A stretch of DNA of 64,000 nucleotides, taken from NCBI RefSeq assembly GCF_002261265.1, contig NZ_NEVK01000001.1, forward strand, positions 124,001 to 188,000. The letters are read 5' to 3'. Position numbers and translations under genes: made by a program. The notes below the pieces were generated by a model. The model saw only the letters and a list, made by a program, of their open reading frames with translations, searched no databases and had not been told where the DNA came from. Below, in pieces: positions 32,228 through 63,669 of this stretch (position 1 is its first letter; each line of letters begins with the position of its first letter). The DNA is from Bordetella genomosp. 7. Its GTDB lineage: Bacteria; Pseudomonadota; Gammaproteobacteria; Burkholderiales; Burkholderiaceae_B.

Positions 32228-32283
32228 ACAAAGTATTCTACTGCAGGGCGGCATCTTGGGACATGACGGCATGGCCTGTGAGG

Positions 32284-33090
32284 GTGTCTGACACCAAAGG
32301 TGTCAGACACCGTCTGGCAAGCAGCAGGCAGCGGCGTGATGGCACGGCCGTGGAGGGTGTCTGACACCAAAGGTGTCAGACACCGACTGGCAAGCAGAAG
32401 GCAGCAGCGTGATGGCACGGCCGTGGGGGGTGTCTGACACCAGAGGTGTCAGACACCGACTGGCAAGCAGAAGGCAGCAGCGTGATGGCACGGCCGTGGG
32501 GGGTGTCTGACACCAAAGGTGTCAGACACCGACCGGCAAGCAGAATGCAGCAGCGTGATGGCACGGCCGTGGGGGTGTCTGACACCAAAGGTGTCAGACA
32601 CCGTCTGGCAAGCAGCAGGCAGCAGCGTGATGGCACGGCCGTGGGGGTGTCTGACACCAAAGGTGTCAGACACCGTCTGGTAAGCAGCAGGCAGCGGCGT
32701 GATGGCACGGCCGTGGGGGGTGTCTGACACCAAAGGTGTCAGACACCGACTGGCAAGCAGCGGGCAGCAGCGTGATGGCACGGCCGTGGGGGAGTGTCTG
32801 ACACCAAAGGTGTCAGACACCGACCGGCAAGCAGCAGGCAGCGGCGTGATGGCACGGCCGTGGGGGGTGTCTGACACCAAAGGTGTCAGATACCGTCTGG
32901 CAAGCAGCGGGCAGCGGCGTGATGGCACGGCCGTGGGGGGTGTCTGACACCAAAGGTGTCAGACACCGACCGGCAAGCAGCGGGCAGCGGCGTGATGGCA
33001 CGGCCGTGGGGGTGTCTGACACCAGAGGTGTCAGACACCGACCGGCAAGCAAGACACGCCACTGTGTCAGACACCGCCTGGCAAGCAGGC
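32284..33090. repeat. Array of eleven ~73-bp hairpin repeats (REP-like)
   Basis: GGTGTCTGACACC-AAA-GGTGTCAGACACC, a 13-bp perfect stem with a 3-base loop, recurs eleven times. The GTGTCTG of each copy starts at 32284, 32357, 32430, 32503, 32575, 32647, 32720, 32794, 32867, 32940 and 33012. Units are separated by a nearly constant ~45-base spacer ending 'gatggcacggccgtgg'. The period is 72-74 bases. A twelfth half-copy ends near 33090. Variants are few (CAGAGG loops in copies 3 and 11, GATACC in copy 9). It fills the region between the divergent MarR and SDR genes. The bases up to 33226 hold no gene. Confidence 0.93.
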
Positions 33091-59653: not shown

Positions 59654-60412
59654 ATGAAAAACACGACGACGACGACGGTTCCCCTGGGCAGCCCCCTGTA
59701 TGCGCAGGTCAAGCAGGCGGTGCTTGCCGCGCTGGCGCGTGGGGAGTGGAAGCAGGGCGAGGCCGTTCCGCCAGAGAAGACGCTGGCCGAACGCTTCGGT
59801 GTTTCCATCGGCACCCTGCGCAAAGCCATCGACGAACTGGCCGCCGAGAACATATTGGTGCGGCATCAGGGCCGCGGAACGTATGTCGCGGTGCACACCC
59901 GCAATCACCATTTCTTCAAGTTTTTCCGCATCGTGAGGCAGGACGGCCACAAGTCGTACCCCGCCACGCGCCTGGTGCGCTTTCGCCGCGTGCGGGCCAA
60001 TGCGGCGGCGCGCGAATACCTGAGCCTGCCCGCCGGCGCATACGTATTCGAGTTCACGAATGTGCTGTCGCTCAACGGCGATGTGGTGATGGTGGATGAC
60101 ATCAGTGTGCCCGAAGCGCGCTTTCCCGGCATGACCGAACAGCAGCTGCGCGAGCGGCCCAGCACGCTGTACGCGTTTTACCAGGACATGTTCGGCGTGA
60201 ACGTCATCGCCACCGATGAGCGGTTGCGCGTATGCCCGGCCGACGCCGCCCACGCCGGCTGGCTGGGCGTTGCCGAGCACACGCCCTTGCTGGAAATCCG
60301 CCGCGTGGCGTTTTCGTACAACCGGCAGCCGGTGGAATGGCGCATTTCGCGCGTCAACACCCAGGCGTACGAGTACCTGGGCCAGGAGCCCGGCGCCGCC
60401 GTAGCCGGATAG
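59654..60412 (+). CDS. GntR-family transcriptional regulator, HutC/UTRA type
   Basis: A 252-residue regulator. The winged HTH (about 12-80) has 'PLYAQVKQAVLAALARGEW', 'PPEKTLAERFGVSIGTLRKA' and 'LVRHQGRGTYVAVH'. A UTRA ligand domain follows (about 95-245). The start at 59654 (MKNTTTTT) is preferred to one 19 codons upstream. It is divergent from suyA and should sense an operon substrate or intermediate. The 81-bp repeat array begins nine bases after its stop codon. Confidence 0.88.
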   Translation: MKNTTTTTVPLGSPLYAQVKQAVLAALARGEWKQGEAVPPEKTLAERFGVSIGTLRKAIDELAAENILVRHQGRGTYVAVHTRNHHFFKFFRIVRQDGHKSYPATRLVRFRRVRANAAAREYLSLPAGAYVFEFTNVLSLNGDVVMVDDISVPEARFPGMTEQQLRERPSTLYAFYQDMFGVNVIATDERLRVCPADAAHAGWLGVAEHTPLLEIRRVAFSYNRQPVEWRISRVNTQAYEYLGQEPGAAVAG

Positions 60413-60421
60413 ACAGAGGAG

Positions 60422-60656
60422 GGTGTCTGACTTCCGCAGGGTGTCTGACACCTTCGGAGTCAGACACCGGCTTGTGGCGCGGTGGGGCTTGGCATTTGCA
60501 AAGGTGTCTGACTCCCGCAGGGTGGGGCTGGGCATCTGCAAAGGTGCCTGACTCCCGCAGGGTGTCTGACACCTTCGGAGTCAGACACTGGCTTGTGGCA
60601 TGGTGGGGCTGGGCATCTGCAAAGGTGTCTGACTCCCGCAGGGTGTCTGACACCTT
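60422..60656. repeat. 81-bp hairpin repeat array, left part
   Basis: Units start at 60422, 60503, 60543 and 60624. A full unit is GGTGTCTGACTCC, CGCAG, GGTGTCTGACACC, TTC, GGAGTCAGACACC, then a ~34-base spacer. The first and third blocks pair in a 13-bp stem. The unit at 60503 has lost the central hairpin (only 40 bases long). The unit at 60624 is cut at CACCTT (60656) by the IS110-family element. Confidence 0.93.
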
Positions 60657-60659
60657 GTA

Positions 60660-60860
60660 TCTTGAAGGCGGTGGTGATTAGCTATCGCTACTAGCGTATC
60701 CGGTGAGTTTGTTCTGACACCGAAAGCCTGGACTTTGTGACGCAGATTAGGCCCCGGATGCGCGCCTCTGAGAGCCGACTGGACATTGGACGGTAGCCTA
60801 GGGCATTGTGACCCTGCATGTACAAGGCAAATGGGCGCAGTGGGCTTGGAGGCCAAGTTA
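60660..60860 (+). ncRNA. Candidate bridge RNA of the IS110-family element
   Basis: The non-coding left end contains segments matching what an IS110 bridge RNA must recognise, in the expected order. Left target guide: TCTGACACC (60713-60721), identical to the target strand left of the core (60646-60654). Candidate right target guide: CCGGA (60754-60758), pairing with TTCGG of the target right side with one G-U. Left donor guide: GACGGTA (60789-60795), identical to the element's right end (61868-61874). Right donor guide: TACAAG (60821-60826), complementary to core plus left end CTTGTA (60654-60659). RNA ends are estimates. Confidence 0.68.
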
Positions 60861-60876
60861 AGAGGAGTCCGAGTCG

Positions 60877-61860
60877 ATGTTTTTTCTGGGAATTGACGTT
60901 TCGAAGGCCAAGCTGAACTGCGCTCTGATCGGCGCTGAAGGCGATAAGCGCAAGACCAAGGTGGTGCCCAATACGGTCGCGGGCATCCAGGCCTTGCTAG
61001 GGTGGTGCGCCAAGCAAGGTGCGCAGCCGGAGCAGTTGCACGTGGTGCTCGAGCCGAGCGGGCCGTACCACGAGCAGGCGGGCACTGCGCTGCATGACGC
61101 GGGGGCCAGGGTCTCGATGATCAATCCGGCGCAGGCGCGCGATTTTGCCGGTGCGCTGGCGGTGCGCACCAAGACCGATGAGATCGACAGCTACGTGCTG
61201 GCCCGCTACGGGCAGGCACTGCGTCCGCCGTTGTGGCAGCCGGCGCCGCTGCACGCGCGGCAACTGCGCGCGCTGCTGGCCAGGCACGAGGCGCTGGCCA
61301 AGGATCTGCAGCGTGAGCTCAACCGGCAGGAGAAGGCCCAGTTCGGCCAGTCGCCCGAGCCGGTCACCGGCTCGATTGACCAGGGCGTGGCGTTTCTGAC
61401 CGAGCAGATCAAGCGCCTGGAACGTGCTATCAATGACCATATCGACCGCCATCCAGACCTGAAAGAGGACCGGGACCTGCTGACCAGCATTCCGGCCGTC
61501 GGTCCGCAGACCGGCAACGCGTTGCTGTCGATCATGCATAACCGGCGCATCGAATCGCCTCAGTCGCTGGCGGCCTATCTGGGCTTGGCGCCCGTACAGC
61601 GCCAGTCCGGCACCAGTCTGAACGGCCGGTCTCGGCTGTCCAAGACGGGGCCGGCTAGAGTGCGAGCCACCCTGTACATGGCCGCGGTCGTGGCCGTGCG
61701 CCATAACCCTCACATACAGGCGCTCTACGCCCGTTTGCTGGCCGCCGGCAAGTCCAAAATGGCCGCTCTCGGGGCAGCCATGCGCAAGCTGGTCCACCTA
61801 TGCTTCGGCGTGCTTAAAAACCGCACCCCATATCGCAGCGATTACGCGTTAGCCACTTGA
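60877..61860 (+). CDS. IS110-family transposase (DEDD/serine recombinase)
   Basis: A 327-residue recombinase. The RuvC-like DEDD residues are D7 ('GIDVSK'), E59 ('VLEPSG'), D101 and D104 ('KTDEIDSYVLA'). A coiled-coil linker spans about 125-190. The C-terminal Tnp domain has 'LTSIPAVGPQTGNALL' and the catalytic serine S244 in 'QRQSGTSLNGRSRLSKTGPA', followed by 'RATLYMAA'. Full length and intact, so the element may be active. AGAGGAG at 60861-60867 gives the start. It cuts and rejoins donor and target guided by the bridge RNA. Confidence 0.95.
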   Translation: MFFLGIDVSKAKLNCALIGAEGDKRKTKVVPNTVAGIQALLGWCAKQGAQPEQLHVVLEPSGPYHEQAGTALHDAGARVSMINPAQARDFAGALAVRTKTDEIDSYVLARYGQALRPPLWQPAPLHARQLRALLARHEALAKDLQRELNRQEKAQFGQSPEPVTGSIDQGVAFLTEQIKRLERAINDHIDRHPDLKEDRDLLTSIPAVGPQTGNALLSIMHNRRIESPQSLAAYLGLAPVQRQSGTSLNGRSRLSKTGPARVRATLYMAAVVAVRHNPHIQALYARLLAAGKSKMAALGAAMRKLVHLCFGVLKNRTPYRSDYALAT

Positions 61861-61875
61861 CTGCCAAGACGGTAT

Positions 61876-62299
61876 CTTCGGAGTCAGACACCGGCTTGTG
61901 GCACGGTGGGGCTGGGGCATTTGCAAAGGTGTCTGACTCCCGCAGGGTGTCTGACACCTTCGGAGTCAGACACCGGCTTGCGGCAGGGCGGGGCTGGGCA
62001 TTTGCAAAGGTGTCTGACTCCCGCAGGGTGTCTGACACCTTCGGAGTCAGACACCGGCTTGCGGCATGGTGGGGCTGGGCATTTGCAAAGGTGCCTGACT
62101 CCCGCAGGGTGTCTGACACCTTCGGAGTCAGACACCGGCTTGTGGCACGGTGGGGCTTGGCATCTGCAAAGGTGTCTGACTCCCGCAGGGTGTCTGACAC
62201 CTTCGGAGTCAGACACCGGCTTGTGGCATGGTGGGGCTTGGCATTTGCAAAGGTGTCTGACTCCCGCAGGGTGTCTGACACCTTCGGAGTCAGACACCG
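61876..62299. repeat. 81-bp hairpin repeat array, right part
   Basis: It resumes with the remainder of the interrupted unit (CTTCGGAGTCAGACACC from 61876), then five full units starting at 61928, 62009, 62090, 62171 and 62252, an exact 81-base period. Spacers differ only by single changes (TGTGGCACGG, TGCGGCAGGG, TGCGGCATGG and so on). The last unit ends at ACACCG near 62299, 64 bases before the metX riboswitch. Confidence 0.93.
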
Positions 62300-62362
62300 C
62301 ACCCCGTCGCACCGGCTTCGCCGCCCTCGTGTTGCCGGCAGTGCTAAACTTCCGAACTTCAA

Positions 62363-62420
62363 CCGGCGCCGATTTGCCTGATCCGCTTGCGGGCGCCTCT
62401 ATAAATCCAGCTAAAGAGGT
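62363..62420 (+). promoter_or_regulatory. SAM-II riboswitch before metX
   Basis: The sequence follows the SAM-II consensus in order: GGCGCC (62365-62370), GATTTG (62371-62376), CTTGC (62386-62390), GGCGCC (62392-62397) pairing with the first arm, ATAAAT (62401-62406) and GCTAAAGAGG (62410-62419). The last block contains the metX Shine-Dalgarno (AGAGG, five bases before ATG 62425). In SAM-II the ligand locks a pseudoknot that hides this region, so S-adenosylmethionine would switch off metX-metW translation. Confidence 0.83.
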
Positions 62421-62424
62421 CCGT

Positions 62425-63669
62425 ATGACCGCTCCTGCCCTATCTCCGGCCGGGGGGCTAACCCCCGGCGCTGCGCCTGCCGACCCTGGTTCGGTGGGTA
62501 TCGTGACTCCCCAGCTCATCCGATTCGACGAGCCGCTGCAATTGGCCAGCGGCCAGTCGCTGCAATCGTACGAACTTGCCGTCGAGACCTACGGCGTCCT
62601 GAACGCCGAACGCACCAACGCCGTGCTGATCTGTCATGCGCTGAATGCGTCGCATCATGTGGCCGGCGTAGCGGCCGACGACCCCAACGACATCGGCTGG
62701 TGGGACAATATGGTCGGGCCGGGCAAGCCGGTGGACACCAACCGGTTTTTCGTCATCGGCGTCAACAACCTGGGGTCGTGCTTCGGGTCCACCGGCCCGG
62801 CCAGCATCAACCCCGCCACCGGTCGGCCATGGGGCGCGGCCTTTCCCGTGCTGACCGTCGAAGACTGGGTGCACGCCCAGGCGCGCCTGGCCGACTACTT
62901 CGGCATCGGGAAGTTTGCCGCGGTCATGGGCGGATCGCTGGGCGGCATGCAGGCCCTGAGCTGGGCCATTACCTGCCCGGAGCGCGTGGCGCACTGCATC
63001 GTCATCGCCAGCACGCCCCGCCTGTCGGCGCAGAACATCGGGTTCAACGAAGTGGCGCGGCGCGCCATCATCACGGACCCCGACTTCCACGGCGGCGACT
63101 ACTACGCCCACAACACGGTGCCGCGCCGCGGCCTGTCGGTGGCGCGCATGATCGGCCACATCACCTACTTGTCGGACGACGACATGGCCGAGAAATTCGG
63201 CCGTACCCAGCGCGAGCCCGCCGAAGGCGGCGCCTATCGCTACGGCTACGACGTGGAATTCGAGGTGGAGTCGTACCTGCGCTACCAGGGCGAAAAGTTT
63301 TCGCGCTACTTCGATGCCAATACGTATCTGCTGATCACGCGCGCGCTGGATTACTTCGATCCCGCACGCCGTACCGGCGGCGACCTGGCCCAGGCGCTGG
63401 AGCCCGCACGCGCCGATTTTCTGCTGGTGTCGTTCACGACCGACTGGCGCTTTCCGCCAGAGCGCTCGCGCGAAATCGTGCGGGCGCTGCTGAAAAACGG
63501 CAGCCCGGTGACATACGCCGAGATCGATGCGCCGCACGGCCATGATGCGTTCCTGCTCGACGACTCGCGCTACCACGCGGTAATGCGCGGGTATTACGAG
63601 CGCATCGCGCACAAGCTGGGCCTGGCCGTGACGGCCAGCGAACCTGCCGACGAAGGATGCCCAGCATGA
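62425..63669 (+). CDS. metX: Homoserine O-acyltransferase (acetyl/succinyl), MetX type
   Basis: A 414-residue alpha/beta-hydrolase-fold enzyme that activates homoserine for methionine synthesis. Nucleophile Ser is in '[15 protein letters not shown]' (about 170-184), Asp in '[13 protein letters not shown]' and His in '[13 protein letters not shown]'. '[17 protein letters not shown]' forms the oxyanion and acyl site. Several proteobacterial MetX proteins use succinyl-CoA rather than acetyl-CoA, and which applies here cannot be settled by eye. The start at 62425 follows AAAGAGG. The frame stays open upstream through the repeat array, but that part is not coding. It overlaps metW (ATGA). Confidence 0.93.

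Follow-up and report, generated by a model that had tools for sequence, protein, structure and literature searches.

The window, i.e. the entire 64,000-nt stretch of DNA analyzed, carries an IS110-group element that interrupts a tandem array of a palindromic host repeat (Table 1). A domain search revealed both PF01548 and PF02371 in its 327-aa recombinase, and among solved proteins the recombinases of ISCro4 and IS621 came nearest (E values near 3e-59; 3.4e-59 for IS621). Residues D7, E59, D101, D104 and S244 align with the matching ISCro4 residues, at the places expected for DEDD and the serine, the presumed catalytic residues.

Table 1. Positions, in the window, of the element, its predicted RNA and guides, and the surrounding repeats
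Feature	Positions	Strand	Basis or remark
Left block of the interrupted array	60422..60655	.	free target sites at 60444, 60565
Left target TCTGACAC	60646..60653	+	sequence
Left CT core	60654..60655	+	copy 1 compared with copy 2
IS110-group element between the two CT cores	60656..61875	+	1220 nt; 1222 nt including one core
-10-like box TATCTT of the predicted junction promoter	60658..60663	+	17-nt spacing in 26/30 families
Predicted bridge RNA, covariance-model part	60664..60828	+	model R1
5′ stem-loop of the RNA	60671..60691	+	consensus fold, six clade members
Target-binding stem-loop	60694..60763	+	clade fold; stem covariation also in 17 other families
Left target guide UCUGACACC	60713..60721	+	same letters as left target and core C; covariation with the flanks
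Right target guide GACGCAG (reads CT-GCGTC; AG pairs with core)	60739..60745	+	covaries, 20 families
AU after the right target guide	60746..60747	+	donor handshake-guide position of IS621, by analogy
Left donor guide GACGGUA	60789..60795	+	identical to 61868-61874, right end
Inner hairpin of the donor loop, UAGGG/CCCUG	60799..60816	+	clade fold and covarying stems
Right donor guide UACAAG	60821..60826	+	complement of CTTGTA (core and left terminus)
IS110 recombinase gene, 327 aa	60877..61860	+	open frame, domains, residue alignment
-35-like box TTGACT, right end, overlapping the recombinase stop codon	61857..61862	+	junction scan
Right CT core	61876..61877	+	copy 1 compared with copy 2
Right target TCGG	61878..61881	+	sequence
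Right block of the 81-bp array	61878..62299	.	free sites at 61950, 62031, 62112, 62193, 62274

The element and its boundaries

The non-coding ends of the element measure 221 nt on the left, 5′ of the gene, and 15 nt on the right, 3′ of it. A long left and a short right non-coding end is the arrangement of the IS110 group, whereas IS1111 elements have the opposite one. Two copies, compared with each other, revealed insertion at a short shared CT core without a longer target duplication. In domains and residues, in the lengths of the ends and in short-core insertion the element has the characters of the IS110 group, and the initial annotation had correctly named it an IS110 element with a long non-coding left end.

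That annotation had also proposed that the intact 81-bp repeats fix the empty site, both junctions and a CTT core. The empty site is indeed clean: the joined flanks restore a repeat unit, with 105, 105 and 106 matches over 111 columns (2 gap columns each) to three neighbouring units in a gapped comparison of 110 nt; an ungapped version over 162 nt gave only 89-125 matches. The core had to be revised. The junctions of the second copy read ..TCTGACACCT|TGTATC .. GGTATCT|ACGGAG.., with A after the core where the array has T. Because this copy reads CT|ACGG, the core is CT and the T that follows belongs to the element; the CTT core, whose third T is supplied by the element in copy 2, was rejected.

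Occurrences in the genome and the host palindrome

The genome of the window (G000) consists of 8 contigs and 4.13 Mb. It holds a second full copy, one base different from the window element (at 61752). Two further pieces, a left end and a right end, each lie at the end of a contig and probably belong to a single third copy in a palindrome of the same type. All three occurrences have TCTGACAC-CT as left flank, and the right flanks are CT-TCGG, CT-ACGG and CT-TCGG. Copy 2 and the two contig-end pieces thus have the same left target and CT, with (A or T)CGG on the right, and the refuting case named in the initial annotation, copies at unrelated sites, did not arise.

The window element lies in a palindrome loop, GGTGTCTGACAC|CT|TCGGAGTCAGACACC, inside a tandem array whose right block has a period of 81 bp. 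The 13-mer TCTGACACCTTCG offers seven free sites in the array besides the filled one, and to this extent the proposal that every unit is an equal target holds. Nevertheless, the array is not special, as there are 53 free TCTGACACCTNCG sites in the genome, of which 7 are in the window array. Copy 2 and the contig-end pieces sit in palindromes with flanks unlike those of the array, and with one of three occurrences in an array there was no basis for a preference, which was rejected. For the element, this array is one of many target clusters and has no special status.

The left target and core, TCTGACACCT, occur 172 times in the genome, the three filled sites included, and NCG follows in 3/3 occurrences vs 56/172 sites (p 0.03, weak). 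Sites with one more C (TCTGACACCCTNCG) number 168, and none is used by the three occurrences (p 0.015; this value and those of 0.03 and 0.06 for the other site-class contrasts were computed after the data had been seen).

The palindromes are very numerous: TCTGRCACCTNCG sites number 53 in G000, 62 in G001 and 29 in G003 (the genomes of two relatives described below), and those with one more C number 168, 77 and 69, compared to 0-3 for control patterns. A second tandem array at 32282-33051, with 10.6 copies of a 73-bp unit, contains a related palindrome. On its bottom strand there are 11 TCTGACACCT sites, with TTGG or CTGG next in place of NCG, and none of them is filled in the window. A SAM-alpha riboswitch match (62356-62435; 39.3 bits, cut-off 36) was found between the 81-bp array and the next gene, presumably metX. 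A literature search that covered few subscription papers and preprints matched the repeat core GTGTCTGACACC in a single paper, on zebrafish.

Predicted bridge RNA

The left end was analyzed with a covariance model (R1) built from 17 families that lie outside the clade of the window element and whose protein identities are 62% or less. The model recognized the window RNA at 102.4 bits (E 2.5e-25 over seven sources); a comparison with such a model had been suggested in the initial annotation. At E 0.01 its genome-wide hits were limited to both full copies and the contig piece with the left end (150 of 168 first-look candidates scored). Of the 20 base pairs of the model, 18 change on both sides, 88.2% of the cells are paired, and 0/500 shuffles were as good. 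Taken alone, the window left end folds moderately better than its shuffles (z -1.89), and no Rfam 15 family matches it.

The left end has the layout of an IS621-type RNA, namely a 5′ stem-loop, a target loop and a donor loop, the outer stem of the latter lying outside the model. That the target loop precedes the donor loop, as in known bridge RNAs, had been proposed before and is borne out by the clade fold and by the IS621 layout.

Guide segments of the window element

Three segments had been read as guides in the initial annotation: the left target guide, which equals the left target; GACGGTA, which equals the right terminus; and TACAAG, which complements the core plus the left terminus. These readings stand. 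Each of the segments (TCTGACACC at 60713, GACGGTA at 60789 and TACAAG at 60821) occurs once in the left end; when the left end was shuffled 20,000 times by mononucleotides, they turned up in 0.035%, 1.8% and 3.5% of cases, respectively. The left target guide covaries with the flanks as well (see below); the covariation evidence concerns the target guides, and the donor guides are backed by the sequence match.

The fourth assignment did not survive. The segment CCGGA (60754-60758), proposed as the right target guide, forms one side of the target stem, opposite UCCGG (60699-60703), and 3/5 of these pairs change on both sides among six families. As a guide, scored at the best of three offsets, it fitted its own flanks at 2.96 of 7 letters vs 2.66 with swapped flanks, and 2,352/100,000 permutations were as good. 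The segment supported as right target guide is instead GACGCAG. In the window element it fits its own right targets in 4/7 letters, with the mismatch adjoining the core, and no TCTGACACCTGCG site is present among the 53 listed free sites of the genome. Directly 3′ of this guide AT is found in 21/27 families, and by analogy with IS621 (excerpts of PMC11208158) it may act as a handshake guide for the donor. At the second handshake-guide place of IS621, the donor-loop base after CAAG complements the last base of the left target in 24/27 families; six families have a base other than C at this position, and the match holds in half of them.

Pairing of the core dinucleotide by all four guides is not found in the window element, whose left target guide has G opposite the core T, i.e. 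CG opposite CT. The letters at this place are CT in 18/27 families, and the clade of the window element, unlike IS621, mostly lacks a guide letter for the core T. Since the IS621 papers show tolerance (excerpts of PMC11208160 and PMC11208158), we regard the mismatch as variation within the kind.

Guides and flanks among relatives

Relatives were drawn from whole genomes and plasmids. The plasmid search matched 1288 records; the 60 listed were all below 50% identity, 20 others were at 60-80%, and seven of the 60 supplied sequence. A scan of IMG/VR with the recombinase returned one stretch and no relative. After eight loci with a missing or unrecognized left end and the duplicates L001, L002 and L024 had been dropped, the survey comprised 54 copies in 38 families. 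An anchored test was performed on 27 families, hand-selected among the 38 for left ends that align; 20 of these had a right flank. The 11 families outside this test include those of the Nitrosomonas type, in which right guides mostly match in full and left guides less so.

The left guide fitted its own left target plus core at 8.46 of 10 letters, vs 5.18 with swapped flanks (27 families), and the segment at the GACGCAG position fitted its own right flank at 5.39 of 7, vs 3.77 (20 families); in both cases 0/100,000 permutations were as good. In an unanchored test (38 families left, 30 right), 0/20,000 permutations were as good, and the own left end was the best or tied-best match in only 24/38 families on the left and 16/30 on the right. 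Left guide matches were weak (5-7 of 10) in IS1663, L035 and L066. The initial annotation had held that the guides should covary with the flanks in related elements, and they do.

The covariation can be followed in single relatives. In G003, whose element is 87% identical to that of the window, TCTGGCAC is found in the guide and in 3/3 targets, although sites of this class, the filled ones included, are only 11 of the 32 in-register sites of that genome (p 0.03, post hoc). In an A. mucicolens relative (77% identical), TCAGACAC is found in both guide and target. Eight copies in genome G092 encode the IS1663 recombinase (99.4% for the copy compared); their right guide reads CTGTCCC, and 8/8 right targets are CT-GTCCC. 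The Nitrosomonas-type branch (L006, L039-L043, L045, L054) has the left end CGTAT, right guides that read CT-GACCC and right targets that are mostly CT-GACCC, with CT-GACAC in both guide and target of L006. In L063, from a Serratia symbiotica plasmid, TT apparently replaces CT beside the left end, and the left guide also has TT; no right end was found for this relative.

These data bear on whether the RNA selects the target at all. It could be argued that the recombinase recognizes the palindrome, or a cruciform, with the guide matches being incidental; all three occurrences in G000 lie in palindrome loops, and the window right guide fits poorly (4/7). This is very improbable, given that the guides follow the flanks letter by letter across families, with no permutation in 100,000 as good, and that the G001 copy L023 has the right flank CT-TCATACC, with no palindrome arm, and a left target with one mismatch. 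Less credible still is an ancestral match, in which a stretch of the host repeat was at some time picked up by the left end, through chance or a recombination event, and the element no longer moves. Such a history would suit the fact that 2/3 occurrences are not readable end to end, but the copies are one base apart, the gene is open, and relatives with altered guides occupy altered targets.

Predicted promoter at the circle junction and proposed mode of movement

When the right end is joined to the left end, TTGACT-N17-TATCTT is formed across the core, i.e. a sigma-70 type arrangement with a 17-nt spacer. A -35 box starting with TTG and lying 17 nt from the -10 box is present in 26/30 two-ended families, and in one the spacer is 18 nt. 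The junction promoter score was at least 9/12 in 24/30 families, vs 3% of shuffled junctions. A scan of 60400-62450 with fixed criteria found no sigma-70-like promoter in the integrated state. It is predicted from the joined sequence that the two ends would form a sigma-70 promoter on an excised circle; transcription from the excised circle is the arrangement of IS621 (excerpts of PMC11208160, PMC11208158).

At the level of sequence, then, the locus has a recombinase gene, defined ends, a CT core, guide matches, covariation of guides and flanks, and a covarying RNA fold. We conclude, with a probability of about 0.93, that the locus holds a complete insertion sequence of the IS110 group and that its likely mode of transposition is recombination guided by a bridge RNA, with the loop of a host repeat palindrome as the landing place. 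The central claim of the initial annotation, that the guides can be read against the element's own ends and its target, is supported by the copies, by the covariation and by the covariance model. Movement would proceed as follows: the recombinase would excise the element as a circle, the promoter at the joined ends would direct transcription of the left end as bridge RNA, one RNA loop would pair with both strands of a free palindrome, TCTGACAC-CT-NCG, the other loop would pair with the circle junction, GACGGTAT-CT-TGTA, and strands would be exchanged at CT.

Copies out of register in a related genome

The element of G001 is 95% identical to that of the window and has the same right guide, and its left guide is TCTGACAC-GG vs TCTGACAC-CG in the window. 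Four of its six copies lie at TCTGACACC-CT-GCGG, one base out of the guide register; the other two occupy TCTGACAC-CT-ACGG and TCAGACAC-CT-TCAT. All six have an identical guide and differ by at most one base from L014. The contrast with G000 and G003 together is 4/6 vs 0/6 (p 0.06, post hoc; G001 has six copies, G000 and G003 three each).

One explanation for the four copies would be that joining was imprecise at sites in register, TCTGACAC-CT-GCG, and added an extra C. The in-register form TCTGACACCTGCG is present twice in G001, and the p value of the contrast is only 0.06. On the other hand, the same C would have to be added four independent times, and addition of a C at insertion is unlikely because the palindrome with the extra C (TCTGACACCCTGCGGGAGTCAG) makes up 43 of the 44 matches to the pattern in G001, where the form lacking this base has 0. 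We therefore consider imprecise joining unlikely and a real slip in register likely.

As to its cause, pairing between the left guide and the core C may set the cut register, such that the C to G change in G001 lets the recombinase accept one extra base before the core. This is offered tentatively and is, on balance, doubtful, because the contrast reaches only p 0.06, slipped sites are the commoner class within G001 (77 vs 62 in-register), and L065, of another family, lacks the core C in its guide yet shows no slip.

Relation to known elements and significance

The window element is, in all likelihood, a further natural instance of the IS621-type bridge-RNA design, which is known and published. 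IS621 of E. coli, with a homologous recombinase, has a CT core, a target loop followed by a donor loop, a circle-junction promoter and REP palindrome targets (excerpts of PMC11208160, PMC11208158). The window element resembles it in the CT core, the loop order, the predicted junction promoter and the palindrome targets, whereas guides, host and repeat are all different. The closest named relative is IS1663 of Bordetella pertussis, with a recombinase 72% identical to that of the window; it shares the ends, the RNA layout and the CT core, but its guides and targets differ (GGTGC or GGAGC left, CT-GTCCC right). Insertion sites of IS1663 are counted in the seekRNA paper (PMC11187229), and our search, which reached few subscription papers and preprints, found no paper that combines IS1663 with the term bridge RNA. 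The seekRNA elements of the IS110 group, e.g. ISEc21, also have the non-coding region 5′ of the gene and the bottom-strand match before the top-strand one, ISEc21 being a different element with a different target; natural reprogramming between relatives is described there for ISEc11 and ISXne4, both of the IS1111 group (PMC11187229, excerpts).

For ISPpu9, ISPpu10, ISPa11 and IS621 the insertion point is constant within an extragenic palindrome of the host (PMC1525189). The window element behaves likewise, in a palindrome that is different from their REP and that is also found in 73- and 81-bp tandem arrays. The many copies of this palindrome are a large supply of landing sites for the element.

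The relatives in Bordetella and Achromobacter cleanly confirm the bridge-RNA rules in nature, in that one-letter guide changes accompany one-letter target changes between close relatives. If the core C does set the register, one guide letter moved the element to another subclass of host palindrome. The out-of-register copies bear on how strictly the guide fixes the cut position, and hence on the accuracy of bridge-RNA tools.
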